NCBI RefSeq assembly: GCF_000265205.3
Contig: NC_018000.1
Coordinates: 1,302,001-1,366,000, forward strand
Reading direction: 5' to 3'
DNA: 64,000 bases
Source: Sinorhizobium fredii USDA 257
GTDB lineage: Bacteria > Pseudomonadota > Alphaproteobacteria > Rhizobiales > Rhizobiaceae
Within the stretch, counting starts at the first letter, position 1. The number at the start of each line of letters is the position of its first letter. The notes below the pieces were generated by a model. It was not told the origin of the DNA. It did not search any database and saw nothing but the letters and a program-made list of their open reading frames with translations. Below are positions 6,377 to 22,252 of this stretch, one piece after another. The position numbers and the translations under genes were made by a program.

Positions 6377-6422
6377 TGAATCTCCTCCCTGACTTAATAT
6401 AGAAGACGTATTATGTCGCTCC

Positions 6423-6438: not shown

Positions 6439-6514
6439 TTAGCGAAATTCGGCGGCATTGGCAAGCGCCTTACGACTGCGGGTGTGAAAAAGCAGGGTAC
6501 ATGACGAGGGGACG

Positions 6515-7213
6515 ATGACGGGCGGAAGACAGCGACTGGCGCAGCAGGTGATCGACGAGTTGCGCCGGCAGATCGAAGCCGGCCGATTGAAGGAGGGCGA
6601 CCAGCTGCCGACCGAGCCGCAATTGGAGGCGAACTTCGGCGTGAGCCGCACGGTGGTGCGCGAAGCGATCGCCGACCTGCGCGCCGCCGGCTATGTCCGC
6701 CCCATCCAGGGCAAGGGCGTCTTTGTCAGCGATCCCAAAGCGAACCAGCGCTTTACGCTGACCCCCGTGGAGATAAGAAGCATCCCGGAAACCCTTGAAC
6801 TCCTCGAGTTCAGGCTGGCCACCGAGAGCGAGGCCGCGGCGATTGCCGCCTATCGCCGGACTGCCGAACAGGAAGCGGCCATCGCCGCCGCCAACAGAAA
6901 GATGGCTCAATTGATCGACGAGGGGAAGCCAACTGTCGAGGCCGATTTCGAATTCCACATGGCAATCGCCGCTGCCACCAACAACCGATTCTACCTGGAT
7001 GTCATGCGGCAATTCGGGCCGCGCGCCATTCCCCGTAGCCAGGTCACGACGCTGCCCGAAGCCGCAGACAAGGCCTATCTGCTTAGTGTCCACGCGGAGC
7101 ACGGCGAAATTCTCTCGGCCATTGAGGACCAGAATCCCGAACGTGCCAGGCAAGCGATGCGCAACCATATCATCGGCAGCCAGCGCCGCTATCGGCGTCT
7201 CGCCGAGCAATAA
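6515..7213 (+). CDS. GntR/FadR-family transcriptional regulator (FCD domain)
   Basis: Regulator of 232 residues. The N-terminal winged helix covers about residues 5-70, with LPTEPQLEANFGVSRTVVREAIADLRAAGYV and a wing ending GKGVFVSD. The C-terminal all-helical FCD ligand domain covers about 85-225, with the usual metal/ligand histidines in DFEFHMAIA and the HAEHGEIL segment. It is divergent from the ABC operon and precedes uxuA, and both promoter regions carry the same palindrome. The likely inducer is the transported compound or a breakdown product such as a hexuronate. Confidence 0.92.
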   Translation: MTGGRQRLAQQVIDELRRQIEAGRLKEGDQLPTEPQLEANFGVSRTVVREAIADLRAAGYVRPIQGKGVFVSDPKANQRFTLTPVEIRSIPETLELLEFRLATESEAAAIAAYRRTAEQEAAIAAANRKMAQLIDEGKPTVEADFEFHMAIAAATNNRFYLDVMRQFGPRAIPRSQVTTLPEAADKAYLLSVHAEHGEILSAIEDQNPERARQAMRNHIIGSQRRYRRLAEQ

Positions 7214-7242
7214 TCCGCTCGACAGCTCTAGCAAATTCATAT

Positions 7243-7257
7243 TATGTCATATGACAT
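7243..7257. promoter_or_regulatory. Operator-like palindrome upstream of the mannonate dehydratase gene
   Basis: A perfect 14-bp palindrome ATGTCATATGAC-AT occupies 7244-7257, about 30 bases before the GTG start. The 12-base core TATGTCATATGA matches the site at 6423-6434 exactly. This places uxuA and the ABC operon under one predicted regulator, the GntR protein encoded between the two sites. Confidence 0.62.
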
Positions 7258-7287
7258 CTTGGAATTGGCATGGAAGGAGGTCTGTCC

Positions 7288-8262
7288 GTGTATGTAGGAA
7301 CGCAGGTCGCTGCCCGCGACGACGAGGATTACCGGGTCTACGCCCAGCTTGGCGTCAAGAACATCTGCGCCGATCCGCCGGGTCCACCGGCAAGCTGGAC
7401 CCTGGAAGACCTTGAAAGGCACCGCGACCATGTCGAGAGCTTCGGCCTGGTGCTCGACATGGTTCAGCTTCCCCTGCCCTCGAAACCCATCGAGAAAGCC
7501 TCCTATCCCGACATCCTGCTGGCAGGACCGGAGCGCGACCGCCAGATCGACGCCGTCTGCCGCATGATCGAGAACTGCGCCCGGGCCGGCATTCCGTCGG
7601 CAAAGTACAATCTGAACCTGATCGGCATTCCCCGCAGCGAAATGGAGCGCGGCCGCGGCGGCTCGATGAACGAAGCCTTTCGCTGGGAGCGAGTCGACCA
7701 GAGCGCCGCGCCGGGACTTGCCGGCGTGCTGTCGGAGGACGAGAACTGGGAGCGCATCGACTATTTCCTGGAACGGGTCGTGCCGGTTGCGACAAGCAAC
7801 CGGGTGCGCATCGCCTGCCATCCGCACGATCCCTACACGCCGCCCGGCTATCGCGGCGTGACGCGCGTTCTAGGGACGGTCGAAGGTCTGAAGAAGTTCG
7901 TACAGATGCACGAGAGCCCCTATCATGGCCTGAATTTCTGCCAGGGCTCGATCGGCGAGATGCTGGACAATCCGCGTGAGGAGATCGACGAGATCATCCG
8001 CTGGTTCGGCACGCGCGGCAAGATCTTCAACGTGCACTTCCGCAACATCAGTGGCGGCAAGCTATCCTTCATGGAAACCTTCCCCGAGGAAGGCGACATG
8101 GATATGGTGCGCTCGCTGAAGATCTATCGCGAGGTCGGATACCAATATATGGTGATGCCCGACCACGTCCCGACGATCAGCGGCCGCGACCCGACCGGCG
8201 TCGCCTTCGCCTTTTGCTACGGTTATATCGCGGCGCTCATCCAATCGCTTTCCGCCTCATAA
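7288..8262 (+). CDS. uxuA: Mannonate dehydratase (UxuA family)
   Basis: Predicted to dehydrate D-mannonate to 2-keto-3-deoxygluconate in hexuronate breakdown. It is a TIM-barrel enzyme whose metal ligands are recognisable: His in CHPHDP (about 178-180), Cys218 in NFCQGSIGEM, His250 in NVHFRNI and Asp292 in MPDHVP. It has 324 residues against about 394 for E. coli UxuA, matching the shorter rhizobial/Gram-positive type. I chose the GTG at 7288 because a strong AAGGAGG lies at 7274-7280, seven bases before it; the in-frame ATG at 7270 lies on top of that site. The upstream palindrome suggests control by the preceding GntR gene. Some family members act on other sugar acids. Confidence 0.88.
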   Translation: MYVGTQVAARDDEDYRVYAQLGVKNICADPPGPPASWTLEDLERHRDHVESFGLVLDMVQLPLPSKPIEKASYPDILLAGPERDRQIDAVCRMIENCARAGIPSAKYNLNLIGIPRSEMERGRGGSMNEAFRWERVDQSAAPGLAGVLSEDENWERIDYFLERVVPVATSNRVRIACHPHDPYTPPGYRGVTRVLGTVEGLKKFVQMHESPYHGLNFCQGSIGEMLDNPREEIDEIIRWFGTRGKIFNVHFRNISGGKLSFMETFPEEGDMDMVRSLKIYREVGYQYMVMPDHVPTISGRDPTGVAFAFCYGYIAALIQSLSAS

Positions 8263-8369: not shown

Positions 8370-8413
8370 CTGACACAAGCGTTCCTTCGTGATAATATGG
8401 TATCCCATAATAC
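8370..8413 (+). promoter_or_regulatory. Promoter with overlapping GntR operator
   Basis: A sigma70-like promoter is visible: CTGACA at 8370-8375, a 17-bp spacer, and TAATAT at 8393-8398. The -10 box runs into the palindrome TATGG-N4-CCATA (8396-8409). The extended stretch 8395-8413 matches 17 of 19 bases of 18582-18600, upstream of the long minus-strand operon. The position, on the -10 and likely start point, suits repression and autoregulation by the GntR protein encoded just downstream. Confidence 0.7.
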
Positions 8414-8438: not shown

Positions 8439-9134
8439 ATGAGCGTGTCTGATCAGCCGATGCGGGTTCTTCGTCCGGAGAAGACACTTCGCGAGCTTGC
8501 GCTGGAAAAGATGCGCGACGCTATCGTCAACATGCATTTCAGGGCGGGCGAACGGCTTGTCGAGCGCGACCTGTGCGATCAGCTCGGCGTAAGCCGGACG
8601 ATCGTCCGCGAAGTGCTGCGCCATCTGGAATCGGAAGGCCTTGTCGCCATCCAACCGAATCGCGGCCCGATCGTCGCCGAGACCACCCCGGAAGAAGCCC
8701 GGCAGATCTACGAAATCCGCGGCGTGCTCGAAGGCATCGCTGCCAAGGCCTGTGCCACGCAAAAGGACCCGCGCGTGGTGGCCGAGCTCGAGCGCATCCT
8801 TGCGCGCATCCGGGCAGCCTATGCCGCAAATGAGCTGCCCGCGGTCCTCACCGCCACGACGGATTTCTACCGCACGCTGTTCGAAAATTCCGGACGCCAT
8901 GTCGCCTGGGGTATCGTCAATTCGATCACGGCAAGGATCAATCATTTGCGGTCGATGACGATCAAGACACCCGACCGCAACAAGCAAGGGCCGGCCCAGA
9001 TGCAGAAGATCATCGACGCGATCAAGGCCGGCGATGGCGCGGCGGCCTACGAGGCGGCCAACGTGCATGTCACAAATGCCGCGGCGATTGCCGAGGCGCT
9101 TCTGGCCGAGCAGCAAGGCGGGAACAGAGGATAG
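8439..9134 (+). CDS. GntR/FadR-family transcriptional regulator (FCD domain), predicted regulator of the 9429-18554 operon
   Basis: Regulator of 231 residues with a winged helix (about 20-85; RLVERDLCDQLGVSRTIVRE, wing PNRGPIVAE) and an FCD domain (about 90-220). The ATG at 8439 is preceded by GGAAAGGGAA; an upstream in-frame ATG at 8355 would lie before the promoter -10 and is rejected. Its own promoter carries TATGGTATCCCATA, and almost the same site lies upstream of the AA_synth gene at 18554, so it probably controls itself and that catabolic operon. It is separated from the operon's last gene by a structured repeat. Confidence 0.92.
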   Translation: MSVSDQPMRVLRPEKTLRELALEKMRDAIVNMHFRAGERLVERDLCDQLGVSRTIVREVLRHLESEGLVAIQPNRGPIVAETTPEEARQIYEIRGVLEGIAAKACATQKDPRVVAELERILARIRAAYAANELPAVLTATTDFYRTLFENSGRHVAWGIVNSITARINHLRSMTIKTPDRNKQGPAQMQKIIDAIKAGDGAAAYEAANVHVTNAAAIAEALLAEQQGGNRG

Positions 9135-9428: not shown

Positions 9429-10511
9429 TTAGCAGAAGACGTGCGCCGTCGCCGGATCGAAGCCAAGCCAGACGCTATCACCGCGGTTGAGGCTGGAAAT
9501 CGCCTCATGACCGAACGGAAGGCGGACCGCCAGAGCGTCACCCTTCGCAGTCTGAGTCGCGACATGAATGTTGTTGCCGAGAAAGGTGATGTCGCTCACC
9601 GTGACGGGAACCGCGGTCGAGCCGCCCGGCGCCGATCTCGTCAGGCTCAGGCGTTCCGGTCGCAGCATCAGCGCCGCCTTGCCTCCGGGGACCGGCCGGC
9701 CATGAACCGGTACGTTTGGAATGACCGTCGCTCCGGCCAGCGCGATATCCGCCTTGCCATTTGCGGCCGTCACCAGATCGCAGGGCAGGAAATCGCTATC
9801 GCCGATGAATTCGGCGACGAAGCGGGTCGTCGGATTAGCATAGAGTTCCGGCCCCGTGCCGATCTGGTCGATGATACCCTTCGAAAAGACGGCGATCCGA
9901 TCGGAGAGCCGCAACGCCTCCTCCTGGTCATGCGTGACATAGAGGACCGTCACTTCCGTCTGCTGGTGGATGCGGCGGATCTCGTGCTGGATCTCCTCGC
10001 GCAGTTTCTTGTCGAGGGCGGAAAGCGGCTCGTCCATCAACAGCAGCGGCGGGTCGTAGGCAAGCGCGCGCGCCAGCGCGACGCGCTGCTGCTGTCCGCC
10101 GGACATCTGCGCCGGCTTGCGGTCCTCGAAGCCTTCGAGCCGCACGAGCTTCAGCATGTCGCGCACCTTGGCGTCGACCTCCGCCTTTGGAAGCCGCCTG
10201 ACCTTCAGCGGGAAGGCAATGTTCTCGCCGACGGAGAGATGCGGAAAAAGCGTATAACGCTGGAAAACCATGCCGATATTGCGCTTGTGCGACGGCGTCG
10301 ACAGCAGTGACTGGCCGTTCAGCACGATGTCGCCGCGGGTCGGATCCTCGAAACCGGCGAGAATATAGAGCGTCGTGCTCTTTCCCGATCCGGATGGCCC
10401 GAGAAAGGTCAGGAATTCACCCTGCGCCACGTCGAGATTGACGTCGTGGACGGCGGTAACGGGTCCGTATTCCTTGCGGATGCCGCGGATTTGCAGGAAG
10501 GGTTTGCTCAT
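9429..10511 (-). CDS. Polyamine-type ABC transporter ATP-binding protein (PotA-like)
   Basis: ATPase of 360 residues and last gene of the minus-strand operon. The ABC domain covers about 4-240, with Walker A GPSGSGKST, signature MSGGQQQRVALARAL and Walker B LLLMDEPLSALD. A C-terminal TOBE_2 domain (about 280-355) is typical of polyamine/iron/opine importers. The ATG at 10511 overlaps the end of the permease gene. A longer open frame extends upstream but has no ABC homology. It energises import by the two permeases and binding protein encoded upstream. Confidence 0.92.
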   Translation of the reverse strand: MSKPFLQIRGIRKEYGPVTAVHDVNLDVAQGEFLTFLGPSGSGKSTTLYILAGFEDPTRGDIVLNGQSLLSTPSHKRNIGMVFQRYTLFPHLSVGENIAFPLKVRRLPKAEVDAKVRDMLKLVRLEGFEDRKPAQMSGGQQQRVALARALAYDPPLLLMDEPLSALDKKLREEIQHEIRRIHQQTEVTVLYVTHDQEEALRLSDRIAVFSKGIIDQIGTGPELYANPTTRFVAEFIGDSDFLPCDLVTAANGKADIALAGATVIPNVPVHGRPVPGGKAALMLRPERLSLTRSAPGGSTAVPVTVSDITFLGNNIHVATQTAKGDALAVRLPFGHEAISSLNRGDSVWLGFDPATAHVFC

Positions 10512-11308
10512 GATTTCAATCCTTTGCGAACGAGGGCGACAAGCACCATCAAGAGCACGGTGAGCAGGATGAGAAGGGTGGAGGCGGCGGCGACGACAGG
10601 CGTCAGGTCCTGCCGCAAGGTCGCCCAGACCTTGACGGGAAGCGTCTGCAGCGTCGGGCTCGCCATGAAGATTGCGACGACCACTTCGTCCCATGAGGTG
10701 AGAAACGAGAAGATCGCCGCCGAGAAGATGCCGTGGCTGATGGCCGGCAGCGTCACGCGGATTTTCGCCTCGAATGGGGACGCACCGCACAGCACGGCGG
10801 CGTCCTCGATCGATTTGTCGAATCCCTCGAGCGCATTGGTGATCGACAGGATCGAGAAGGGCAGTGCCAGCACCAGATGGGAAATGACGAAGCCCGACAG
10901 CGTGCCGTTGAGGCCGATTTGCAGGAAAAAGGCGTAGAGCGCCACGGCGAGAACGACGACGGGCAGGATCATCGGCGTCAGGAACAGGGCTTTCAGCGCC
11001 TCGCGAAACATGAAGCGCGCGCGCGTCAGCCCAAAGGAAGTGACGAGCCCGAGGAGGACCGAAAGAACCGTGACGATGATTGCGATCTGGAAGCTCGTCC
11101 AGGCGGACTCCAGCCAGCGCGGATCGGCGAGAAGCTCCCGGTACCATTGGAGCGTCCAGCCGGGCGGCGGAAAAATCAGCCATTGCGACGAGCCGAAGGA
11201 CAGCGCCGCGATGAACAGGATGGGCAGGAGCAGGAAGGCGGCTGTCAGCACCGTGATGCCGATCAGAACCAGCTTCCACCAGCCGAGACGATCGAAATTC
11301 AGGAGCAT
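10508..11308 (-). CDS. Polyamine-type ABC transporter permease (PotC-like)
   Basis: Inner-membrane subunit, 266 residues and about six helices, with a BPD_transp_1 domain and coupling loop near EDAAVLCGASPFEAKIRVTLP. I chose the ATG at 11308 (MLLNFDRLGWW) because it follows the stop of the previous permease by one base and is preceded by a purine-rich stretch. The longer frame starting at 11404 lies entirely inside the upstream permease gene. It pairs with the PotB-like subunit. Confidence 0.9.
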   Translation of the reverse strand: MLLNFDRLGWWKLVLIGITVLTAAFLLLPILFIAALSFGSSQWLIFPPPGWTLQWYRELLADPRWLESAWTSFQIAIIVTVLSVLLGLVTSFGLTRARFMFREALKALFLTPMILPVVVLAVALYAFFLQIGLNGTLSGFVISHLVLALPFSILSITNALEGFDKSIEDAAVLCGASPFEAKIRVTLPAISHGIFSAAIFSFLTSWDEVVVAIFMASPTLQTLPVKVWATLRQDLTPVVAAASTLLILLTVLLMVLVALVRKGLKS

Positions 11309-11309
11309 G

Positions 11310-12182
11310 TCAGCGTCCTCCCATCCGGTCTGTGCCGAAGAAGCGGAGCTGCACCGCATAGAGCGCCAGGGTGACGACCAGCAGCACCAGGGCCGCAGCA
11401 CCACCCATGCCCCAGTTGACGAGCGACTGGACGAATTGCGCGATGAGTTCGGCCAGCATCATGTTCGCCGTGCCGCCGAGCAGCGCCGGGGTGACAAAGT
11501 AGCCGAGCGACATGACGAAGACCATCAGCGCGCCGGCCGCCATTCCGGGCATCGCCAGCGGCAGGAGAACGCGCACGAGCGCCTGCCAGCGGTTGGCGCC
11601 GCAGAGCGCCGCCGCCTGCAGGATAGCCGGATCGATCTTCCTGATGACGCCATAGAGGGGCAGGATGACGAAGGGCAGCATGATGTAGGTCATGCCGATC
11701 GTCACGCCCGTCAGATTGTTGACGAGCGGAAGCGGTGTGTCGATGAGGCCCAGACCGACCAGCAGCTTGTTGACGACGCCGGTGCGCTGCAACAGCACCA
11801 TCCAGGCATAGGTGCGCGCCAGCAGGTTGGTCCACATCGACAGAAGCAGGATGGCGAAGATCACCGAAGCGAAGCGGCTCGGCATCACCGCTAGCGCCCA
11901 AGCGACGGGAAAGCCGATGACCAGCGAGACGAAGGTGACCAGGCCGGAAACCAGGAACGTGTTCGCGAATATCTTGAGATAGGTGGAGGAGCCCAGCAGT
12001 TCGGCATAGTTTCCGAAGCCCGGCACGGGCTCCGAGACGCTGCGCGCCAACAGAATGGCGACCGGCACGACGAAAAAAAGGACCAGCAGGCCGAGCGCCG
12101 GCAAGGTCAGATCGAAGTCCGTGAGCGTCAGGCGTGCAGGGACGTTCGATCCTGCCGCCTTCGCGTCGGTGCGCGACAACAT
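11310..12182 (-). CDS. Polyamine-type ABC transporter permease (PotB-like)
   Basis: Inner-membrane subunit, 290 residues. A cytoplasmic N-terminus is followed by about six helices (first around LTLPALGLLVLFFVVPVAI), and the coupling loop is near LQAAALCGANRWQALVRVLLP. The ATG at 12182 is preceded by GGGAGAG at a good distance; an in-frame ATG at 12197 overlaps that ribosome binding site and is less likely. It is followed within one base by the PotC-like gene. Confidence 0.9.
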   Translation of the reverse strand: MLSRTDAKAAGSNVPARLTLTDFDLTLPALGLLVLFFVVPVAILLARSVSEPVPGFGNYAELLGSSTYLKIFANTFLVSGLVTFVSLVIGFPVAWALAVMPSRFASVIFAILLLSMWTNLLARTYAWMVLLQRTGVVNKLLVGLGLIDTPLPLVNNLTGVTIGMTYIMLPFVILPLYGVIRKIDPAILQAAALCGANRWQALVRVLLPLAMPGMAAGALMVFVMSLGYFVTPALLGGTANMMLAELIAQFVQSLVNWGMGGAAALVLLVVTLALYAVQLRFFGTDRMGGR

Positions 12183-12201
12183 GGCTGTCTCTCCCATTAG
12201 C

Positions 12202-12227
12202 GGGCACGAGGGACGCTCCTCGCGCCC
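12202..12227 (-). other. Intercistronic stem-loop between binding protein and permease genes
   Basis: GGGC plus CGAGG on one side pairs with CCTCG plus GCCC on the other across one mismatch and a six-base loop. No T-run follows, so it is unlikely to be a full terminator. Hairpins at this place commonly stabilise the 3' end of the binding-protein message so that it outnumbers the permease message; that role is inferred. Confidence 0.45.
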
Positions 12228-12278
12228 TCACGCCAGATCGGCGGCAAGGACGCCTGGCGCCCTCCCCGCCTTTTCTGT

Positions 12279-13289
12279 TTATTTCGCTTGCCAGGCGTAC
12301 CAGCGCTCGCCGATCGCGTCGCGGTTCTCCGCCCAATAGTTCATGTCGGCATTGACCTGACTCGCCGTCTGCGCATCCGGCAGCGATTTCGCCAGTTCCG
12401 CGTCCATCAGCTTCGGGGATTCGAGATTGATGGGCGCGTAGCCGGTGGCCTTGGCGAGATCGGCTTGCGCCTGGGCAGACGTGGCGAGCGCGATGAACTG
12501 CATCGCTGCTTCCTTATTCTTCGCGCCCTTGGGCACGACGAGCGAGTCGGCGGCGGTGATGTTCTGCTCCCAGGAGGTCTCGACATTGATGCCGCTCTGC
12601 GCCAGCGCCGTCATGCGGCCGTTCCAGACACTGCCGAAGGGCGCCTCAGCGGAAGCGAGCAGCTGCTGCGACTGCGCTCCGCCAGACCACCAGATGATGT
12701 CCGGCTTGATCGTGTCGAGCTTTTTGAAAGCGCGGTCGAGATCGAGCGGATAGAGCTTGTCGGCAGGCACGCCGTCGGCAAGCAGGGCCGCCTCGATGAC
12801 ACCCGGCGCCGACCACTTGTAGAAGGCGCGCTTGCCAGGGAACTTCTCCGTGTCGAAGAGATCCGCCCAAGTCTTCGGGCAGGCGTCGACCGCATCCTTG
12901 TTGCAGCCGATCACGAAGGAATAATAGAAGCTGCCGACCGAATAGTCGGTGACGAAGCGCGGGTCGAGCTTAGACTTGTCGATCACCGAGAAATCCAGCT
13001 TCTCCAGCAGGCCGTTCTTGCCGGCCTGAGCGGCGTAGTCGCCCTCGACATCGACGACGTCCCAGGTGACGGCGGCCGCCTCGACCATGGCCTTGAGCTT
13101 GCCGTAGTCGGTCGGTCCGTCCTGAAGCACGTTGATGCCGGTCTTTTCGGTGAATTTCTCGGCCCAGGCGATCTTCTGCGCGTCCTGCGTCGTGCCGCCC
13201 CAGCTCGAAAAGACAAGATCCGCGGCCGTCGCCGGCATTGCTGTTGCAATTGTCGCGGCAGTGGCCGCCAAAACGAATATCTTCTTCAT
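12279..13289 (-). CDS. Polyamine-type ABC transporter substrate-binding protein (PotD-like)
   Basis: Periplasmic receptor of 336 residues with a signal peptide of about 22 residues (MKKIFVLAA, cleavage near ATAADL). The mature part opens with LVFSSWGGTTQDAQ, typical of cluster-D binding proteins for polyamines, opines and quaternary amines. It sits between the NIPSNAP gene and the two permeases in one operon, so the ligand is probably the compound degraded by the upstream enzymes. If the operon is for trigonelline, this is the uptake receptor. Confidence 0.9.
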   Translation of the reverse strand: MKKIFVLAATAATIATAMPATAADLVFSSWGGTTQDAQKIAWAEKFTEKTGINVLQDGPTDYGKLKAMVEAAAVTWDVVDVEGDYAAQAGKNGLLEKLDFSVIDKSKLDPRFVTDYSVGSFYYSFVIGCNKDAVDACPKTWADLFDTEKFPGKRAFYKWSAPGVIEAALLADGVPADKLYPLDLDRAFKKLDTIKPDIIWWSGGAQSQQLLASAEAPFGSVWNGRMTALAQSGINVETSWEQNITAADSLVVPKGAKNKEAAMQFIALATSAQAQADLAKATGYAPINLESPKLMDAELAKSLPDAQTASQVNADMNYWAENRDAIGERWYAWQAK

Positions 13290-13326
13290 GTTCCCTTGCT
13301 CCGTGGTCCGGTTTTGCTTGGTTGTT

Positions 13327-13653
13327 CTATGACGCGCTGCCGCCTGTCGGCGAAAAGCGCGCCGCCTTCATGATCTTGTTCTCCGCGACTTCTATGAGGT
13401 CGCGTATCTTGGGGAGGAACGCCCGCCAATCCGGGTCTCCCATGAGTGCAGCGCGACGCCTCTCGCGATCGTCGAGGCTCACATAGGCCCAGATGTGGAC
13501 GATCTCGTTGATCGGCCCGATCTCGGAGAAGAAGTAGGCGACGAGTTCGCCGAGATGCTTCGTCTGGATGGCGATGCCCTCTTCCTCGACCACCTTCAGG
13601 TAGGCGGGAATCGCGCCGTTCTTCAGCCGATAGGTGCGGATCTCGTAGAACAT
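13327..13653 (-). CDS. NIPSNAP family protein
   Basis: A small dimeric alpha+beta barrel (ferredoxin-like) protein of 108 residues, beginning FYEIRTYRLKNGAI, the hallmark of NIPSNAP domains. The ATG at 13653 matches the family's normal start; a GTG at 13662 overlapping the aldehyde dehydrogenase stop is the alternative. NIPSNAP proteins are often encoded in catabolic operons without a defined reaction. Here it lies between the dehydrogenase and the binding protein. A role as accessory enzyme or ring-opening helper is possible but unproven. Confidence 0.85.
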   Translation of the reverse strand: MFYEIRTYRLKNGAIPAYLKVVEEEGIAIQTKHLGELVAYFFSEIGPINEIVHIWAYVSLDDRERRRAALMGDPDWRAFLPKIRDLIEVAENKIMKAARFSPTGGSAS

Positions 13654-13658
13654 CGCCG

Positions 13659-15122
13659 TCACCGCATCACGAAGGGATCGGGGATGGGCTCGTCCGACGT
13701 CCTGAGCCAGACGGTCTTCGTCCTTGTGTAGTCGAGGGCGGCGGCCATGCCGCCCTCGCGGCCGTGACCGGAAAGCCCGAACCCGCCGAAGGGCGCGATC
13801 GGCGACACTGCCCGGTAAGTGTTGACCCAGACGATCCCGGCGCGGATCCCCTTCATCAGGCGGTGCGCCCTGGTGAGATTCTGCGTGAAGACCCCCGCCG
13901 CTAGGCCGTAGCTGCTATTGTTGGCGAGGGCGAGCGCCTCCGCTTCCGTTTCGAAGGACAGCACCGAAAGGACGGGTCCGAAAAATTCCTCCTCGAGCGA
14001 GGGCGAGGCGCTGCCGTCGCAATCGAGAATGCTCGGCCGATAATAGTAACCGGCACCTTCGGGTGCGTTGCCGCCCGTGATCAATTTGGCGCCGGCGGCG
14101 AGCGAGCGCGCGACCAGCGCCTCGATATGGTCGCGTTGACGCCGTGTCGCGAGTGGCCCGACTTCCGTCGCCATGTCGAGCGGGCTGCCGATGCGGACCG
14201 CTTCCGCCTTTGCTTTGAGGATTTCCAGGAAGTGATCCTTGACGCTTTTCTCGACGATCAGCCGCGAACCGGCGACGCAGCTCTGGCCGGTCGCGGCAAA
14301 GATGCCTGCGACCTGGGCATTGGCCGCACTCTCGAGATCGGCGTCCGCGAAGACGATGAAGGGGGACTTTCCGCCGAGCTCGAGCGAGGTCGAGGCGAGG
14401 TTCTCTGCCGAATTGCGCACCACATGACGCGCCGTTTCCGGCCCCCCGGTAAAGGCGATATGATCCACCTTGGGGTGACGGCTGAGCGCGGCGCCGCAGG
14501 AGGGGCCGAAACCGGTGATGATGTTGACGACGCCGGCCGGAAAGCCCGCCTGGTCGATGAGCCGGGCAAATTCGAGGAGCGGCGCCGGCCCGTCCTCCGA
14601 GGCCTTCACCACCATGGTGCAGCCGGCAGCCAGGGCCGGGCCGATCTTCACCGCCGACAGGAACAGCTGGCTGTTCCAGGGCACGACCATGGCGACGATG
14701 CCGATCGGTTCGCGGCGCAGCCAGACATCCATGTCCGGCTTGTCGATCGGCAGATAGGAACCCTCGATCTTGTCGGCGATCCCGGCATAATAGCGATAAT
14801 ACTCGGCGACATAAGCGATCTGCGCCGAAGTCTCGCGGATGATCTTGCCCGTGTCCCGCGTCTCCAGTTCAGCAAGTTTCTGGGCGTTCTCGGCGACGAG
14901 ATCGCCGAGCTTGTAGAGAAGCTTGCCTCGCTGCGTGGCGGTCAGTTTGGACCACGGCCCTTCGTAAAGAGCGTTATGCGCGGCCTCGACGGCGCGATCG
15001 ACATCGGCTTCCCGCGCCTCCGGCATCTCCGCCCAGGCGGCGCCGGTCGCCGGGTCGATGCTTTCGAACCGGGCTTCGCCATCTGAAAATTCGCCACCGA
15101 TGTAAGACTGGAACCGCTGCAT
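13659..15122 (-). CDS. NAD(P)-dependent aldehyde dehydrogenase
   Basis: A complete 487-residue aldehyde dehydrogenase. It carries the oxyanion Asn in VPWNS (N150), the Rossmann motif FTGGPET (about 224-230), the general base E248 in LELGGKSPF and the nucleophile C282 in GQSCVAG. It oxidises an aldehyde or lactol to the acid. In trigonelline degradation of Acinetobacter an enzyme of this family oxidises the hydroxylactone formed by ring opening, and another oxidises succinate semialdehyde. Either step would fit. It lies directly after the monooxygenase gene (5 bases) in the same operon. Confidence 0.92.
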   Translation of the reverse strand: MQRFQSYIGGEFSDGEARFESIDPATGAAWAEMPEAREADVDRAVEAAHNALYEGPWSKLTATQRGKLLYKLGDLVAENAQKLAELETRDTGKIIRETSAQIAYVAEYYRYYAGIADKIEGSYLPIDKPDMDVWLRREPIGIVAMVVPWNSQLFLSAVKIGPALAAGCTMVVKASEDGPAPLLEFARLIDQAGFPAGVVNIITGFGPSCGAALSRHPKVDHIAFTGGPETARHVVRNSAENLASTSLELGGKSPFIVFADADLESAANAQVAGIFAATGQSCVAGSRLIVEKSVKDHFLEILKAKAEAVRIGSPLDMATEVGPLATRRQRDHIEALVARSLAAGAKLITGGNAPEGAGYYYRPSILDCDGSASPSLEEEFFGPVLSVLSFETEAEALALANNSSYGLAAGVFTQNLTRAHRLMKGIRAGIVWVNTYRAVSPIAPFGGFGLSGHGREGGMAAALDYTRTKTVWLRTSDEPIPDPFVMR

Positions 15123-15127
15123 GTGCC

Positions 15128-16168
15128 CTACTCCGCAAATGCCGGCATGACCTCGGCGATGAAGCGCTCGAGCGAGGCCTTCTTGCGCTCGAAGCTCATG
15201 CCCGTATCGATCCAGAAGGAATATTCGTCGTAGCCCAACGCCTCGTAGGCCTTCAGCCGAGCGATCACCTGATCGGCAGTTCCGACGGCGAGGTTCTTGC
15301 GCATCACCTCCGGTGAGACGATGGCGTTTTCCGCCATCTCCTCTTCGGTGATGGTTTCGATGAGGCCCTGTCGGATCGGCCTTTCGTTTTTGAACCAGGC
15401 AAAGAAGTAGTTGTAATAGACGCTGAGCTCCTTGGCCGCCTGCTCGAGATCGGCTTCGTCGGTGCCTACATAGGCATGCTGCAGCAGCATGATCTTCGGG
15501 CGCTCGATCTCCGGCTTCTTGGCGCAGGCCGCCTCGAAGCGCTCCATCAGGCTGGCGATCTCGCCGTCGCCGTTCCAGAGCGGCGTGACCTGCACGTTGC
15601 AGCCGTTGGCGACCGCGAATTCATGGCTGTTGGGGTCGCGCGCCGCAACCCAGATCGGCGGATGCGGCTCCTGCACGGGCTTCGGCGCCGAGGTCGTCGA
15701 CGGAAACGTCCAGAACTCGCTCTCATGCGCGTAGTCGCCTTCCCAAAGCCCCTTTATGGCAGGAATGAGCTCGCGCATCCGCTGGCCGGCGCCCCAGGCG
15801 TCGAGCCCGGGGGCGAGCCGATCGTACTCGAAACTGTAGGCGCCACGGGCGATGCCGATATCGAGCCTGCCCTCGGTGATAATGTCGGTCATCGCTGCTT
15901 CGCCGGCGAGCTTGATCGGATGCCAGAATGGCGCAATCACCGTGCCGGTACCGAGCCGGACATTCTTCGTGCGGCGGGCGAGATCGGCGAGGCTGAGGAA
16001 CGGATTGGGCGCGATGGTGAAACTCATGCCGTGATGCTCGCCGGTCCAGATGGCCGAGAAGCCGCCACGGTCGGCGATCTCGCAGAGCTGGATGAACTCG
16101 CGGTAGAGGCTCTCGTCCGTCTGCCCGGGGTTGAGGCGCTCGAGATGCACAAAAAGCGAGAATTTCAT
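15128..16168 (-). CDS. Luciferase-like (LLM) flavin-dependent monooxygenase
   Basis: TIM-barrel flavin monooxygenase of 346 residues with typical family stretches: AIWTGEHH near the N-terminus, VRLGTGTVIAP, and RLDIGIARGAYSFEYDR. Such enzymes use reduced flavin made by a separate reductase, and the next gene upstream (4 bases away) is a flavin reductase. The pair matches the two-component layout of TgnB/TgnA, RutA/RutF and pyridine oxygenases, which open N-heterocyclic rings. The substrate is inferred from the gene set, not from residues. Confidence 0.9.
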   Translation of the reverse strand: MKFSLFVHLERLNPGQTDESLYREFIQLCEIADRGGFSAIWTGEHHGMSFTIAPNPFLSLADLARRTKNVRLGTGTVIAPFWHPIKLAGEAAMTDIITEGRLDIGIARGAYSFEYDRLAPGLDAWGAGQRMRELIPAIKGLWEGDYAHESEFWTFPSTTSAPKPVQEPHPPIWVAARDPNSHEFAVANGCNVQVTPLWNGDGEIASLMERFEAACAKKPEIERPKIMLLQHAYVGTDEADLEQAAKELSVYYNYFFAWFKNERPIRQGLIETITEEEMAENAIVSPEVMRKNLAVGTADQVIARLKAYEALGYDEYSFWIDTGMSFERKKASLERFIAEVMPAFAE

Positions 16169-16171
16169 GGG

Positions 16172-17104
16172 TCAGGCCTTTCTGGCGAAGGGGTGAACCT
16201 TGCCCTGTTTCTCATCGCCGACATAAACGCCGAAATTGCCCAGCGCGCTCTCGGCTGCAAAGCGCCTCAAGAGATCGGCGGTGGCCGGATTGTCCATGTT
16301 GTCGAGCGGCAATTCCGCAAGGGGAACAAAGCGTCCGGCCTGGGTTTCGCCGGGTTCGGCGCCGGCGCGATAGACGATGTGCTGGTGACCGGTCGTCTTG
16401 TTGTCGTAGACCGAATAGAGAAAGCCGACCTCGATCGCCAATCCCGTCGTGGCCGTCAGATAGTCCTGCAGCACCGCCAGTGCCTCACCGCCCTTGAGGG
16501 CCATTTGCGGCAGGCGCCAGCGGCCGTCGGCCTCCGGGATCAGCAGGACCGCGCCGTCGCGCTCGACGACGGCGGCAATCAGCGGGGCGCCCTCGGCGGC
16601 GGCCGAGACCGCCTTGCCGGACAGGCCCGGCGTGATGTAGCTGCCGCGCGCAAAGCCGAGCCCGGCCATGGCGCCGTTCTCGAAGGCCTCCACGCGGCCG
16701 ATCAGGATGGCGTGGTCGCCTGCGTCGACAATCTCGTTCAGCGAACAATCGAACCAGGCGCTGACGCCGGCCAGGATCGGCGCACCATGCGGACCGCGCT
16801 TCCATTCGACCGCCGCGAACCGATCCTCCACCGGTTTGGCAAAGGTGTTGGACACGGCTATCTGCTTTTCCGAAAGAACGTTGACCGCAAAACCATTGGC
16901 TGATGTCATCGTCGCGAAATTGCGTGAGGTCTTGGCGATGCAGACGAGCAGAAGCGGCGGGTCGATCGACACCGATGCGAAGGAGTTCGCGGTAAAACCG
17001 ATCGGATTTCCGGACGCGTCGTTCGCCGTGACGACCGTCACCCCGGTCATGAATGACCCGAAAGCGTCGCGCAGTGTGCGCGGGTCACAAGAAGCTGCTG
17101 TCAT
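16172..17104 (-). CDS. Flavin reductase with degenerate Nudix-like C-terminal domain
   Basis: Two parts in 310 residues. Residues about 8-165 form a flavin-reductase split barrel (FMTGVTVVTA, GFTANSFASVS, RGPHGAPILAG). Residues about 172-285 look like a Nudix fold (AAVVERDGAVLLIPE, RWRLPQ, GGEALAVLQDYL, HQHIVYRA), but the catalytic REXXEE helix is not kept, so hydrolysis is unlikely. It supplies reduced flavin to the LLM enzyme encoded next. The ATG at 17104 overlaps the hydrolase stop by 4 bases; the longer upstream frame is spurious. The size and layout fit the reductase half of trigonelline monooxygenase (TgnA) better than the short RutF type. Confidence 0.87.
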   Translation of the reverse strand: MTAASCDPRTLRDAFGSFMTGVTVVTANDASGNPIGFTANSFASVSIDPPLLLVCIAKTSRNFATMTSANGFAVNVLSEKQIAVSNTFAKPVEDRFAAVEWKRGPHGAPILAGVSAWFDCSLNEIVDAGDHAILIGRVEAFENGAMAGLGFARGSYITPGLSGKAVSAAAEGAPLIAAVVERDGAVLLIPEADGRWRLPQMALKGGEALAVLQDYLTATTGLAIEVGFLYSVYDNKTTGHQHIVYRAGAEPGETQAGRFVPLAELPLDNMDNPATADLLRRFAAESALGNFGVYVGDEKQGKVHPFARKA

Positions 17105-17928
17105 GACTTCTCCCCTTCCCTTGAGAGCCAGTCCGCGAGAATCGCATTGACCGTATCCGGCGCCGTCAGATTGACCATGTGGCGGTGCCCTTCGATGATA
17201 TGCGCCCGGCCGCACGGCGCCGCGACGGCCATGGCAAGCGCCATTTCCGGCGTCGAGTTCGGGTCCTCCGAACCGGTCAGGAACAAGGCCGGACAACGCA
17301 CCTGGGGCCAGCGCGCAGCGTAAACATTGTCGCCATGCGCAAAGGCATTATAGGCGGTCGCATAGCCTTCAGGGTCGACCGTCTGCAGCCAGCTTCGCGT
17401 CAACTCATAGAACGGCGCAGTTTCGCTGCCCTCGCCGAACCAGCGCTTCAGCGGCCCATCGACATCGGCCGCACGCTCGCCGATCGTCAGGGCCCGGGCG
17501 ATGACGGCTGCCTTGGCATCAGCGTCGCGTAGGTAGACGCCATTGAGAAGCGCCACGCGGCGGATGCGTGCACCAAATGTGGCCGCCGCACCGCCAGCGA
17601 TCAGCGCGCCCATCGAATGGCCGGCGAGATTGACGCGGTCCAGCTTCAGATCGTCAAGAAGGACGCCCAGCCAGGCGACGAAATCCTCGAGCTTCGCGTC
17701 AGCATCCAGCCTGTCGCTCTCACCATGTCCGGGCATGTCGACGGCAATGACGCGGTGCCGGGCGGACAGGGCGACAACCTGCGGCGTCCAGGCTTCGAGC
17801 CGCATGCCGACCCCGTGGATGAGGACAAGCGGTTCGCCATGACCGATCTCCACATAGGCGGTACCATGCGCCGTTCGAGCTCGCCTGGCACCGAGACCCG
17901 TGAATTCTGTTCGCTCAGATTGAAGCAT
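17101..17928 (-). CDS. Alpha/beta-fold hydrolase
   Basis: A 275-residue hydrolase with the nucleophile elbow GHSMG (S105), the oxyanion region LIHGVGMR, acid D222 in TGSEDPNS and catalytic His in EGHRHMVN (248 or 250). It probably cleaves an amide, ester or enamide intermediate in the cytoplasm. In the trigonelline route a hydrolase of this fold splits the N-methylformamido-methylene succinate intermediate; RutD of the pyrimidine route has the same fold. It overlaps the flavin reductase by 4 bases. Confidence 0.9.
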   Translation of the reverse strand: MLQSERTEFTGLGARRARTAHGTAYVEIGHGEPLVLIHGVGMRLEAWTPQVVALSARHRVIAVDMPGHGESDRLDADAKLEDFVAWLGVLLDDLKLDRVNLAGHSMGALIAGGAAATFGARIRRVALLNGVYLRDADAKAAVIARALTIGERAADVDGPLKRWFGEGSETAPFYELTRSWLQTVDPEGYATAYNAFAHGDNVYAARWPQVRCPALFLTGSEDPNSTPEMALAMAVAAPCGRAHIIEGHRHMVNLTAPDTVNAILADWLSREGEKS

Positions 17929-17951
17929 CGTCGTGGTCCAGGACTACGGCG

Positions 17952-18554
17952 TCAAACGCCGGCCGGGTTGGCGACATCCTGCCCGAGATCCTTAAGATCC
18001 TGGTAGCGGTCGCCAATGCGGTGATGCGGACGTCCGCCCACCGAGGCGCCAAGCGCAACGACGATCTCGTTTGCCGCCGGCGCATCGGCGACGGAGGTCT
18101 GGATGGTCAGGTAGTGCGAGCGACGCCCTTCATCATTCTTGTCCATGAGCGGGATCATCAAGGCGGCGTTTGCCGGACCGCGTGTATTGCAGAAGGCGAG
18201 GTAGGATTTGGCGCCGACGGCTTGGCGGTAATGATTGCCGAAGCGCAGCGTGTGGATCAGCGCCGATGCATGCTCGACCTCGCCGTCGAGACCGACGATC
18301 GCCGATTTTCCATAAGCCTCGACCGCCTCGCCCGACCCGACCGCGTCGATGATCATCCTCGTCAGTAGTTCACCAAGAACCGGCGCAGCGGCATGAATTT
18401 CCGGCTTCAGGTTCTCGACATAGCCGGCGCCGGCCCAGGGGTTCTTCACCACGGCTATGGCCGAATAGAGCTTCAGCGGCACGGGCGCAGTCTTTCCGCC
18501 TTCGATCAGCGTCGTCTCCACCTGCAGCAGCGTCTTACGGATTTCGATGGGCAT
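17952..18554 (-). CDS. PF06684 'amino acid synthesis' family protein, first gene of the operon
   Basis: A 200-residue protein of the AA_synth family (PF06684); its biochemical role is not established despite the name. It contains the typical AVVKNPWAGAGY, a GKSAIVGLDGEVEH segment, and a late VALGASVGGRPHHRIGDR segment. The ATG at 18554 has a clear GAGGAG seven bases upstream; a longer frame runs through the promoter and operator and is rejected. As the promoter-proximal gene, next to a hydrolase, flavin reductase and LLM oxygenase, it probably acts on an early intermediate or protects against a reactive one. Confidence 0.88.
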   Translation of the reverse strand: MPIEIRKTLLQVETTLIEGGKTAPVPLKLYSAIAVVKNPWAGAGYVENLKPEIHAAAPVLGELLTRMIIDAVGSGEAVEAYGKSAIVGLDGEVEHASALIHTLRFGNHYRQAVGAKSYLAFCNTRGPANAALMIPLMDKNDEGRRSHYLTIQTSVADAPAANEIVVALGASVGGRPHHRIGDRYQDLKDLGQDVANPAGV

Positions 18555-18581
18555 CGCCGTCTCCTCAATCTCTATTACATA

Positions 18582-18611
18582 GTATGGTATGCCATAATAC
18601 TGCCAAGTCAA
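18582..18611 (-). promoter_or_regulatory. Operator and -35 region of the AA_synth-to-transporter operon
   Basis: On the minus strand TTGACT (18606-18611) can act as a -35 box, followed by the palindrome TATGG-N4-CCATA (18583-18596). Bases 18582-18600 match 17 of 19 of 8395-8413, the operator in front of the GntR gene. The site lies about 30 bases before the start codon, where bound repressor would block transcription. Confidence 0.68.
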
Positions 18612-18657: not shown

Positions 18658-18689
18658 ATGAAAAACCCCGCTCGGGGGCCGAGCAGGGG
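18658..18689 (-). terminator. Rho-independent terminator after purU
   Basis: On the minus strand a stem of CCCC-N2-CTCGG against CCGAG-N-GGGG (18666-18689) is followed by TTTTT (18661-18665). It lies about 30 bases after the purU stop and before the operator of the next operon, so it separates the two transcription units. Confidence 0.8.
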
Positions 18690-18720: not shown

Positions 18721-19605
18721 TCAGCCCATCCGTTCCGAAGCGTAGGATCCCGGGCTCGGCGGGAAGACCACGACGCGGTTGCCGTTGATGAAGCAGCGGT
18801 GGTGGATATGGGCATGGACGGCGCGGGCCAGCACCTGGCTTTCGACGTCGCGGCCGATCGACACGTAGTCCTCGGCCGACTGCGCATGGGTGATGCGGGC
18901 GATGTCCTGCTCGATGATCGGCCCCTCGTCGAGGTCGGCGGTGACGTAATGCGCCGTCGCGCCGATCAGCTTGACGCCGCGCTCATAGGCCTGCTTGTAG
19001 GGGTTGGCGCCCTTGAACGACGGCAGGAACGAGTGGTGGATGTTGATGATCCGCCCCGACATCTTCTTGCAGAGCGCATCCGACAGGACCTGCATGTAGC
19101 GGGCCAGCACGATCAGCTCGGCACCGGTCTGCTCGACGAGCTCCAGCAGCTGGGCTTCGGCCTTCGGCTTGTTCTCCTTCGTCACCTTGATGCAGTGGAA
19201 GGGGATGTCGTGGTTGACGACGACCTTCTGGTAGTCGAAGTGGTTGGAGACGACGCCGACGATGTCGATCGGCAGAGCGCCGATCTTCCAGCGGTAGAGC
19301 AGGTCGTTCAAGCAATGGCCGAAACGCGACACCATCAGCAGCACCTTGGTGCGCTCTGACTGGTCATGGAGCGCCGTTTCCATCGCGAATTTCGCGGCAA
19401 TCGGCTTCAGCCCTTCCTCGATAGCGGCGCGACCGACGCCTTCCTCCGAGATGAAGCTGATGCGCATGAAGAACAGGCCGGTTTGGAGATCGTCGAACTG
19501 CGAGCTGTCGATGATGTTGCAGCTCTGTTCAGCGAGATAGCCGGAAAGCGCCGCAACGATGCCGCGGGTGGATTTGCAGGTGACCGTCAAAACGTAAGTG
19601 TGCAT
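18721..19605 (-). CDS. purU: Formyltetrahydrofolate deformylase
   Basis: Hydrolyses 10-formyl-THF to THF and formate, balancing one-carbon pools. It has 294 residues: an N-terminal ACT domain (about 1-85, TYVLTVTCKSTRGIVAALSG) and a C-terminal formyltransferase-like domain with the active-site Asn/His/Asp context INIHHSFLPSFKG, GATAHYV and LDEGPII. The second of two adjacent ATGs (19605) sits at a good distance from AAGGA. Its nearness to oxidative enzymes suggests it recycles folate loaded with carbon from demethylation; this is inference. A terminator follows directly. Confidence 0.95.
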   Translation of the reverse strand: MHTYVLTVTCKSTRGIVAALSGYLAEQSCNIIDSSQFDDLQTGLFFMRISFISEEGVGRAAIEEGLKPIAAKFAMETALHDQSERTKVLLMVSRFGHCLNDLLYRWKIGALPIDIVGVVSNHFDYQKVVVNHDIPFHCIKVTKENKPKAEAQLLELVEQTGAELIVLARYMQVLSDALCKKMSGRIINIHHSFLPSFKGANPYKQAYERGVKLIGATAHYVTADLDEGPIIEQDIARITHAQSAEDYVSIGRDVESQVLARAVHAHIHHRCFINGNRVVVFPPSPGSYASERMG

Positions 19606-19749
19606 CATTCGTCCTTGCTGTCGCGTCTGTAGGCGCTCGGCCCATTGCATGTTCCCTAGATCGCAGCCAATCTAAGGATAAAACATGCAGCAATTCAAAG
19701 TCCAACAGCGACCTTTATGCGCCTGATAAGACGCGCGGCGCTGTAACTA

Positions 19750-20571
19750 TCACCTTGCAGGAAGCGCCGTCTGCTCCTGTGCGTCGATCTCCTTGAGAAA
19801 ATCCTCCAACTCGCCCGGCGCTATGCCGACCAGATGCGCCTTTTCCGGATAGGCGCGGGATCGTACATCCTCGGCATATTCGCGGAAAGCGACGATGCGC
19901 TCCTGCTGCAGCCGTTCGAATTCGGCGGCAAAGTCGCGGTAGACCTTGGCATGGCGCGGATAGTGGCCGCGATTCTGCCCGAGCACGTCTTCGGCAAATA
20001 GATATTGCGCATCACATCCGGTACCCGCGCCCATGGAGAGCATCAGCAGCGACGTGCGCTGCGAGATCGCGGTTGCGACTTCGGCGGGCACGACCTCGAT
20101 CTCGGCCGCGAAGGCGCCTGCCTCTTCGAGCGCCTTGACCTGGCGCCAGATCTCGAGCGCGCTTTGCGCCGTCTTGCCGACGGCCCTGAAGCCGCCGGTC
20201 CAGGTCGCCTTGGACGGGATCAGCCCGACATGACCGCAGACCGGAATGCCTTCCTCGCGAAGCCGCCTGACCGTCGAAAGACCGGCGGCACAATAGACGG
20301 CATCGCCGCCGGCCCGCATCGCCTGGAACGCGCCGCGCAGATAGTCCTCGGCGGTGACGAAGTCGCCATATTCCAGGCCCGGAAAGGCGAAGACCGTAGG
20401 CGCCGCCTCGCGGAATTGCGGCCCGAGCAGCGCCGGCGGAACGGATACGAGGTCGATACCGGCCTTCTCGGCGGCTTCTGCCTCCTCCAGCGTCACGACG
20501 CGCAGCATGGTGAGTTGCCTCTTGCCCTTGATCGACAAGAGATCGGCAACGGTCGGTCGACGGTGTTTCAT
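19750..20571 (-). CDS. PanB-family (ketopantoate hydroxymethyltransferase-like) protein, divergent
   Basis: The 273 residues align with PanB along their length (TVADLLSIKGKRQLTMLRV, GIPVCGHVGLIPSK, EVVPAEVATAIS, SMGAGTGCDAQYLF, VLGQNRGHYPRHAKVY). True PanB makes ketopantoate from 2-oxoisovalerate and methylene-THF. Here the usual metal-binding Asp in VGDS is replaced (SVPPALL), the second Asp and the Lys-x-Glu region are not found (DAVYCAAGLSTV), while the catalytic Glu of the EVVP strand remains. It is therefore probably a functional relative in the PEP-mutase/isocitrate-lyase superfamily acting on another substrate. No panC is adjacent. It follows the ferredoxin reductase gene by 46 bases. 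Confidence 0.82.
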   Translation of the reverse strand: MKHRRPTVADLLSIKGKRQLTMLRVVTLEEAEAAEKAGIDLVSVPPALLGPQFREAAPTVFAFPGLEYGDFVTAEDYLRGAFQAMRAGGDAVYCAAGLSTVRRLREEGIPVCGHVGLIPSKATWTGGFRAVGKTAQSALEIWRQVKALEEAGAFAAEIEVVPAEVATAISQRTSLLMLSMGAGTGCDAQYLFAEDVLGQNRGHYPRHAKVYRDFAAEFERLQQERIVAFREYAEDVRSRAYPEKAHLVGIAPGELEDFLKEIDAQEQTALPAR

Positions 20572-20617
20572 GGAAATCTCCGGATGAATGCTTGAAAAGC
20601 GCGAACTCGGGCGGGTT

Positions 20618-21844
20618 TCAGGCCGCCAGCAGCTTCTTGAGCTTGGTTTCAGGCGAGGACAGCGCCGCCGGGTCGGGCCTGCTGCCCGCGGCGATCAGCA
20701 TTTCCGCAAGGCGAATGTCGCGGGCGACCGCATTGCCTGGCCCGATGCCGCTCGCGGCGATCAGCCGGCCCTCGCCGTCGAGGTGGAACAGAATGAAAGC
20801 GTCGTCGGTGAGCTGGCGCCGGACGGTCGTCGCGGCGCCATCGGCGAGGCCGGCGATCTGCAGGGTCAGTTCGTATTGATCCGACCAGAACCACGGTACG
20901 CTTGCGAGAGGCTCGGCCGCGCCCATCAGATTGGCCGCAGCGAGCGCTCCCTGCTCCTGTGCATTGCGCCAAGCTTCGAGCCGCACCCGCCGACCGTCAT
21001 AGTGCGAGAGGGGAAAGGAACAGCAGTCGCCGGCTGCATAGATGTCGGGGTCCGATGTCCGGAGCGTCTCGTCGACAGCAATGCCGTTTTCGATCAAAAT
21101 CCCGGCAGCCTCTGCAAGTTCCGTATTCGGGATCGCTCCGATGCCGACGACAATGAGATCGGCGGGCATACAGGCGCCCTCGGCGAAGACGACGCGCGCG
21201 CCATCATCATCCGCCTCGAGCGTCGCGATGCGGGCGCCGCAAACGATCTCGACGCCTTCCTGCCGGTGCCGCTCGGCAACGACGGCTGCGATCTCCTCCG
21301 GAACGCTGCGAGAAAGGACGCGCGGCAAGCCCTCGATGAGCACGACATCGGCGCCGAGCTTGCGGGCCGTCGCAGCAAGTTCGAGACCGACAAAGCCTCC
21401 GCCGATGATGGCGAGCTTTCGCCCGGGCCAAAGGGCGGCCCGGATCGCCAGAGCGTCGGCGTGGGTCCGGAGCATCCGGATGCGCTCGGCGTTCCCGCAC
21501 ACGCCTGGAAGGGCGCGTGGCCGGGCGCCGGTCGCAAGCAGCAGCCGATCGTAGTCAATCGTGCGACCCTCCGCGAGCCTGACAACCTTCTGCTCACGGT
21601 CGATCGCCTCAACCGGGACGCTCGTCAGTACGGCAATTCGAGCCTCCTCGTAGCGCGGGGCGTCGGCCACCAATTTCGGCGGCTCGGCGCCGACGAGCCC
21701 GTGCTTGGAAAGCGGCGGCCGCTCATAGGGGAGATGCGGCTCGGCGCCAATCAGCGTGATTTCGCCCTGGAAACCTTTCTCCCTGAGGGCAAAGGCCGCC
21801 CTCGCGCCGCATTCGCCGGCGCCGACGATAACGATATGGCTCAT
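20618..21844 (-). CDS. FAD-dependent ferredoxin reductase (pyridine nucleotide-disulfide type)
   Basis: A 408-residue flavoprotein with the FAD motif IVGAGECGARAAFALRE at the N-terminus, a second Rossmann motif AIIGGGFVGLELA for NAD(P)H, and the FAD-closing IYAAGDCCSF. The RPPLSK signature is typical of reductases serving Rieske oxygenases and ferredoxins. It should pass electrons from NAD(P)H to the Rieske ferredoxin encoded 39 bases upstream, and from there to the membrane diiron enzyme. Confidence 0.92.
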   Translation of the reverse strand: MSHIVIVGAGECGARAAFALREKGFQGEITLIGAEPHLPYERPPLSKHGLVGAEPPKLVADAPRYEEARIAVLTSVPVEAIDREQKVVRLAEGRTIDYDRLLLATGARPRALPGVCGNAERIRMLRTHADALAIRAALWPGRKLAIIGGGFVGLELAATARKLGADVVLIEGLPRVLSRSVPEEIAAVVAERHRQEGVEIVCGARIATLEADDDGARVVFAEGACMPADLIVVGIGAIPNTELAEAAGILIENGIAVDETLRTSDPDIYAAGDCCSFPLSHYDGRRVRLEAWRNAQEQGALAAANLMGAAEPLASVPWFWSDQYELTLQIAGLADGAATTVRRQLTDDAFILFHLDGEGRLIAASGIGPGNAVARDIRLAEMLIAAGSRPDPAALSSPETKLKKLLAA

Positions 21845-21883
21845 GTTCTCCTCCCCTCGCGGCTGAAGCGTCGGGCCGCGTGC

Positions 21884-22201: not shown

Positions 22202-22252
22202 TGGTTTCCTCCATTCGATGCAGTGAATGCGATTTCCGGCTTTTCGTCGCGC

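Follow-up and report, generated by a model that had tools for sequence, protein, structure and literature searches.

What does the ten-gene operon at positions 9429–18611 of a chromosomal stretch of Sinorhizobium fredii USDA 257 degrade, and what does its ATP-binding cassette (ABC) importer carry? The window analysed here is the whole stretch of 64,000 nucleotides (NC_018000.1, positions 1,302,001 to 1,366,000). As the first-pass annotation had described, all ten genes were on the minus strand and encoded a PF06684 protein, an alpha/beta hydrolase, a long flavin reductase, a luciferase-like monooxygenase (LLM), an aldehyde dehydrogenase, a NIPSNAP protein, a solute-binding protein (SBP), two permeases and an ATPase; with some starts corrected, the intergenic distances were -4 to 81 bases. 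Judged from its sequence, it is highly probable that this is the rhizobial version of an operon for catabolism of trigonelline (N-methylnicotinate), which agrees with the trigonelline-type operon proposed by that annotation. Such a catabolic operon is by itself of an already known kind; the SBP, however, is the orthologue of Atu4243, which would place a published "selective GABA receptor" (GABA, gamma-aminobutyric acid) in a trigonelline regulon.

In Acinetobacter baylyi, trigonelline is reportedly converted to succinate semialdehyde (SSA), methylamine, formate and CO2 (Perchat 2018). The type-strain locus (L020) contained genes for DUF1330, GntR, PF06684, hydrolase, flavin reductase, LLM, aldehyde dehydrogenase, an NCS1 permease, a porin-like protein and an SSA dehydrogenase, with the porin and SSA dehydrogenase assigned by eye. 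The central five genes, tgnF-tgnD-tgnA-tgnB-tgnC, had an identical order in the two species, with a GntR/FCD regulator close by in both, whereas 1) the window had the ABC importer and NIPSNAP where A. baylyi has the NCS1 permease, porin and DUF1330, 2) the operon was without tgnE, the SSA dehydrogenase gene, leaving TgnA, TgnB, TgnC and TgnD matched out of the TgnA-E set first suggested, and 3) gntR of the window sat past the far end of the operon. A phylogeny of 43 LLMs paired the window protein with that of S. fredii NGR234 (100/100) and put it in a 29-row clade with A. baylyi TgnB (94/100, slightly below the tool's mark of 95, and long branches leave deeper joins uncertain). LLMs of 41–50% identity fell outside that clade, as did four rows of about 60–64% whose clusters contain the same genes. 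Several database orthologues of the window LLM are called flavin-dependent trigonelline monooxygenase, and many others merely SsuD-like or LLM class. TgnA/TgnB opens the trigonelline ring (PMC8269262). By analogy with the chemistry established in A. baylyi, the enzymes of S. fredii would perform the same reactions.

The S. meliloti plasmid pSymA (SMa0793-0803 region) also carried these ten genes in unchanged order, with 79% identity for the LLM and 93–94% for the SBP, indicating that the grouping is no chance event. That cluster differed in its location on a symbiotic plasmid, in strain ABS7 between noeB and nifT, and in having the GntR gene upstream; it probably corresponds to the trc locus reported by Boivin et al. 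Wild-type S. meliloti grows on trigonelline, whereas a strain without pSymA does not (PMC4207669); nothing on growth of pSymA-less S. meliloti on GABA was found in PMC4207669 or PMC4961836.

The PF06684 and NIPSNAP proteins had been regarded as two added enzymes without a defined step that could mark a variant pathway, a view that was not borne out. The PF06684 protein corresponds to TgnF, a known pathway protein: the DUF1185 homologue of that name stimulates TgnE-dependent SSA oxidation in A. baylyi (PMC7913881), and the single PF06684 protein of that species is encoded at the tgn cluster. A PF06684 gene was close to the LLM gene in 115 of 115 clusters, counted from 134 loci after subtraction of 14 near contig ends, 2 of a sister clade (L013 and L014) and 3 duplicates from one genome. 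NIPSNAP is the usual small protein of rhizobial tgn clusters; DUF1330 alone occurred in 57 of the 115, NIPSNAP alone in 43, neither in 15 and both in 0. The two families have a common dimeric-barrel fold, and hhalign recognised no homology between them (probability 0.2%, from shallow profiles). Their mutual exclusion allows the guess that NIPSNAP replaces DUF1330 functionally, with kinship accounting for part of the pattern. Of 44 other loci, 19 had a TgnE-like gene (at least 55% identity) in the stretch fetched, often directly behind the ATPase gene; the pathway does not need this gene to lie inside the cluster. It was also noticed that the TgnE-like stretch following the ATPase gene in S. 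meliloti ABS7 (L006, from 15851) consisted of two separate matches with no annotated gene, and that the stretch in S. meliloti 1021 (L007) gave one match; the gene is apparently interrupted in ABS7.

The importer, first described as polyamine-type, could be defined more narrowly, its SBP being of the Atu4243 type. Atu4243 (PDB:4eq7, PDB:4euo) and the NIPSNAP protein Atu4242 (PDB:2ap6) are orthologous to the window SBP and NIPSNAP and had the same neighbours in the genome G399, apparently an Agrobacterium; the difference is that Atu4243 has been published as a GABA receptor, reported as highly specific or selective (PMC6829864, PMC3907764). The SBP of G399 was 100% identical to the 4eq7 chain and was encoded within a tgn operon, the order being GntR, amino-acid-type SBP, permease, ATPase, alcohol dehydrogenase, PF06684, hydrolase, reductase, LLM, aldehyde dehydrogenase, NIPSNAP and SBP, with GntR five genes upstream of tgnF. 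Since the solved NIPSNAP homologue 2ap6 is named Atu4242 and the SBP is Atu4243, counting back ten genes with consecutive tags makes the PF06684 protein Atu4237 and the GntR protein Atu4232. Total repression of atu4243 by Atu4232 has been described, the mechanism of derepression being unknown (PMC3907764, citing Planamente 2012). Two operator-like sites were found in G399, TGGTATGCCA between GntR and the next gene and TGGCATACCA directly ahead of PF06684. The amino-acid-type ABC importer and alcohol dehydrogenase genes between gntR and tgnF (L282, 3912–7559) had an operator-like site of their own in front. A literature search, which did not include Planamente 2012, found no paper joining Atu4243 and trigonelline.

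Linkage of this SBP to the pathway was strict in the window's family. Among 394 sampled Rhizobiaceae genomes, 48 had an SBP of the Atu4243 type (at least 67% identity to 4eq7), and TgnB adjoined it in all 48; the place of the LLM gene was known for 26 of these, and the other 22 loci, when fetched, all showed the LLM and four other core genes. The genus of G190, a genome belonging to both the family and the genus sample sets, had the SBP in 16 of 39 genomes, with PF06684, hydrolase, reductase, LLM and aldehyde dehydrogenase beside it in 16 of 16. Across the phylum the SBP was detected at E<=1e-80 in 9 of 398 genomes, and the six loci outside the window's family that were fetched were all beside tgn-type genes (LLM 47–70%). 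The next-best SBPs in a first family sample (199 genomes) reached at most 42% identity; in the four inspected, the pocket residues T13, F100, W202 and D228 were replaced.

Pf622, the binding-protein part of iGABASnFR (PDB:6dgv), belongs to the same SBP family and has the same pocket, and SBPs up to 99% identical to it adjoined tgn-type genes and carried the operator described below. Pf622-type SBPs differed in being about 60% identical to the window SBP and in having LLMs of 47–50% beside them. In the family of G480, taken as Pseudomonadaceae, 80 of 298 genomes had a match to the Pf622 portion of 6dgv at E<=1e-80, with identities of up to 99%; 20 of these 80 loci were chosen by hand down the identity ranking, and the fetched 20-kb stretches contained PF06684 and/or LLM in 18 cases. 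In the two exceptions, L268 (cut by the edge) and L272, only other cluster parts were visible. The clusters of this family (L195–L198 and L258–L276) had in common an LLM of 47–50%, several reductase-like matches, DUF1330, the SBP and the operator, and they may use a substrate other than trigonelline.

The operator TGGNATACCA was found upstream of tgnF in 134 of 143 distinct regions (about 170 bases each, from 147 located), compared with 0.02 expected from base shuffles; A. baylyi had a variant with one base changed. In the G480-family clusters, the importer had its own promoter, with TGGNATACCA 115–204 bases ahead of the SBP gene. The sequence preceded 23 of 33 separately placed SBP genes; the ten without it were seven from Burkholderia/Paraburkholderia and three second copies of the SBP gene. 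For comparison, it preceded 0 of 57 SBP genes located inside the enzyme operon and occurred in 125 of 4000 random stretches. An exact ATGGNATACCAT occurred three times in the 7.03 Mb of the window genome (reversed control, 0), twice in the window, before tgnF and before gntR, and the latter copy suggests autoregulation; the third copy (C1:3017579) adjoined polysaccharide-type genes and looks like chance. The GntR/FCD protein of the window was 41% identical to the regulator beside the A. baylyi tgn genes and 66% to the GntR of G399. A GntR protein at least 38% identical to that of the window or A. baylyi was present in 127 of 154 loci, a set used also for the pocket and aminotransferase counts and still including duplicates and both sister loci. 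The fetched stretches of the other 27 did not contain it; in those from NGR234 and the Agrobacterium genus, of which most were among the 27, it probably lies just past the fetched stretch, as in G399.

These results suggest, with a probability of roughly 0.6, that the "selective GABA receptors" Atu4243 and Pf622 are receptors of trigonelline regulons, with a pocket that evolved to hold a zwitterionic pyridinium carboxylate and that GABA enters as a mimic, that Atu4232 is a trigonelline repressor, and that trigonelline or an intermediate derepresses atu4243. The SBP is likely to have trigonelline as a main ligand. The GABA contacts in the iGABASnFR2 complex are W, T, F, Y (F before engineering), W, R, D and Y (PMC12999171, section 7), and the window SBP carried all eight; among 88 distinct cluster SBPs, seven of these positions were invariant and the eighth was Y or F. 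As many as 121 of the 313 SBP positions were conserved at 97% or more, so that conservation of the pocket is supportive and not decisive. A pocket of five aromatics, one Arg and one Asp would fit a pyridinium carboxylate as well as GABA.

A different view of the importer, which we consider rather unlikely, is that the enzymes degrade trigonelline while the importer is a true GABA importer, retained because GABA and trigonelline both end at SSA. The GABA-bound structure of Atu4243, its reported specificity and the conservation of the GABA-contact residues in the cluster SBPs all speak for it. It is at odds with the strict linkage of SBP and TgnB, with the operator in common, and with the rarity of a GABA transaminase-type class III aminotransferase, which was found in just 1 of 154 cluster loci (A. 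venetianus); by the family model, the closest such gene lay at distances of about 200, 250 and 100 kb here, in G399 and on S. meliloti pSymA, respectively.

Several observations weigh against the reading as a trigonelline operon with a trigonelline importer. Besides the GABA-bound structure and the reported specificity, an atu4243 mutant is said to be affected in GABA transport. The pocket Asp hydrogen-bonds the amine of GABA (PMC12999171), a bond that an N-methylpyridinium is unable to make. The aminotransferase count, made with one query protein, overlooked an annotated copy that the edge of sister locus L014 truncates. An Atu4243-type SBP was absent from three of the 29 genomes whose LLM reached at least 63%, the LLM was seen in only 11 of the 20 G480-family stretches and neither PF06684 nor LLM in 2, and the seven Burkholderia/Paraburkholderia SBP genes had no operator within 450 bases. 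The genome and locus counts are not independent, owing to relatedness. G399 is presumed to be strain C58 or near kin. Finally, the window operon contained no TgnE, the three top copies (55–58%) being elsewhere in the genome.

It is improbable that the operon degrades instead a close relative of trigonelline, such as another N-methylpyridinium or a nicotinate derivative. The flavin reductase and hydrolase were merely 44–52% identical to those of A. baylyi, and sister clusters with LLMs of 41–50% exist that may use other substrates, but TgnB, TgnC and TgnF were each 71% identical to their A. baylyi counterparts, and presence of the orthologous pSymA cluster goes together with growth on trigonelline (PMC4207669). 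Two sister clusters, L013 (6466–12255, on pAt of A. fabrum) and L014 (2578–10277), had LLMs of 41–43% with genes for flavin reductase, aldehyde dehydrogenase, hydrolase, a carboxymuconolactone decarboxylase family protein and PF06684, plus NIPSNAP in L013, and adjoined betaine or amino-acid importers; they probably represent a related N-heterocycle pathway, and the NIPSNAP structure 1vqy (AGR_pAT_315) may belong to a cluster of this type. A putrescine uptake system, as implied by the name potABCD2 given to S. meliloti SMa0799-803 (PMC7268258) and by similarity to the PotD family, is very unlikely, considering that the PotD model scored 88 of 582 required bits and that the pocket is that of Atu4243, with Arg. 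This orthologous importer was among the transport genes found essential for symbiosis by transposon sequencing (PMC7268258). RutA/RutF-type opening of a pyrimidine or pyridine ring, earlier named as the main alternative and favoured by the same broad enzyme families, is scarcely credible, as the RutF model scored 97 of 255 required bits and spanned residues 10–145 of the 311-residue reductase, and no RutA model was among the matches listed (25 of 26 NCBIfam families). The SsuD model scored 26 bits with the LLM, and an NtaA model was likewise absent from the matches listed, so that an LLM closer to RutA, SsuD or NtaA than to TgnB, the result named by the first-pass annotation as refuting its reading, was not observed.

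Table 1. Coordinates in the window of the tgn-type operon, its regulator and associated signals; percentages are amino acid identities.
Feature	Position	Strand	Evidence
GntR/FCD regulator gene	8439..9134	+	PF00392 + PF07729
Second operator copy, 30 bases ahead of gntR start	8397..8408	-	exact ATGGNATACCAT match
ABC importer ATPase	9429..10511	-	PF00005 + TOBE; start 10511 probable
ABC importer permease 2	10508..11308	-	PF00528; start 11308 probable
ABC importer permease 1	11310..12197	-	PF00528
SBP, Atu4243 orthologue	12279..13289	-	4eq7/4euo E=1e-185; 88% to 4eq7 chain
NIPSNAP protein (Atu4242 type)	13327..13662	-	PF07978; top solved homologues 1vqs, 2ap6
tgnC-type aldehyde dehydrogenase	13659..15122	-	71% over 488 aligned positions to A. 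baylyi
tgnB, LLM oxygenase	15128..16168	-	71% over 346 residues (516 bits) to A. baylyi cluster LLM
tgnA-type flavin reductase, C-terminal half past reductase domain	16172..17104	-	44% over 301 aligned positions, full length, colinear, to A. baylyi
tgnD-type alpha/beta hydrolase	17101..17928	-	52% over 251 aligned positions to A. baylyi cluster hydrolase
tgnF (PF06684/DUF1185)	17952..18554	-	PF06684 E=1e-66; 71% to sole A. baylyi PF06684 protein, first gene of tgn cluster there
tgn promoter-like stretch: two overlapping promoter-like matches, operator TATGGCATACCATA on second hexamer	18579..18611	-	operator core 18584–18595
Intrinsic-terminator-like hairpin behind purU	18664..18688	-	consensus match

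Two starts were corrected (Table 1), that of tgnF to 18554 rather than 18611, because the A. baylyi protein aligns from the Met at 18554, and that of the flavin reductase to 17104; a solved homologue of the latter protein was 3rh7 (E=5e-115). The hairpin after purU and the promoter-like matches before tgnF indicate that the operon is probably a transcription unit of its own, and a single 14-gene transcript with the upstream purU module was rejected, since the hairpin and the promoter/operator separate the two. That module (18721–23446, minus strand) comprised purU, ketopantoate hydroxymethyltransferase-like, ferredoxin-reductase-type and fatty-acid-desaturase-type genes, was retained in S. fredii NGR234 (L015), and is possibly an oxidative demethylation/one-carbon module. 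Elsewhere in the window, positions 1233–8262 contained genes assigned by eye to a peptide-type ABC importer, together with genes for a GntR-type regulator and for a protein resembling UxuA (mannonate dehydratase), possibly a hexuronate unit, and positions 24717–26027 (plus strand) encoded a protein with GGXGXD-type repeats (by eye, from the open reading frame list) with no relation to the operon.

For the trigonelline operon we infer the importer ligand, the inducer and the identity of the operator-binding protein as follows. The ABC importer would bring trigonelline into the cell, where TgnA would provide reduced flavin to TgnB for opening of the pyridinium ring; TgnC would oxidise the product and TgnD hydrolyse it, giving the end products listed above for A. 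baylyi, and an SSA dehydrogenase encoded elsewhere, aided by TgnF, would feed the tricarboxylic acid cycle. The GntR protein would occupy TGGNATACCA at the operon promoter and ahead of its own gene, from which trigonelline or an intermediate would release it. For Agrobacterium this is a simple, testable answer to the question of atu4243 derepression that has been stated as open (PMC3907764). Atu4243, the potABCD2 importer and Pf622 are all tied to trigonelline-type gene clusters, and, if the proposal is true, part of the Agrobacterium "GABA signalling" and the sensor domain of iGABASnFR would descend from trigonelline uptake.

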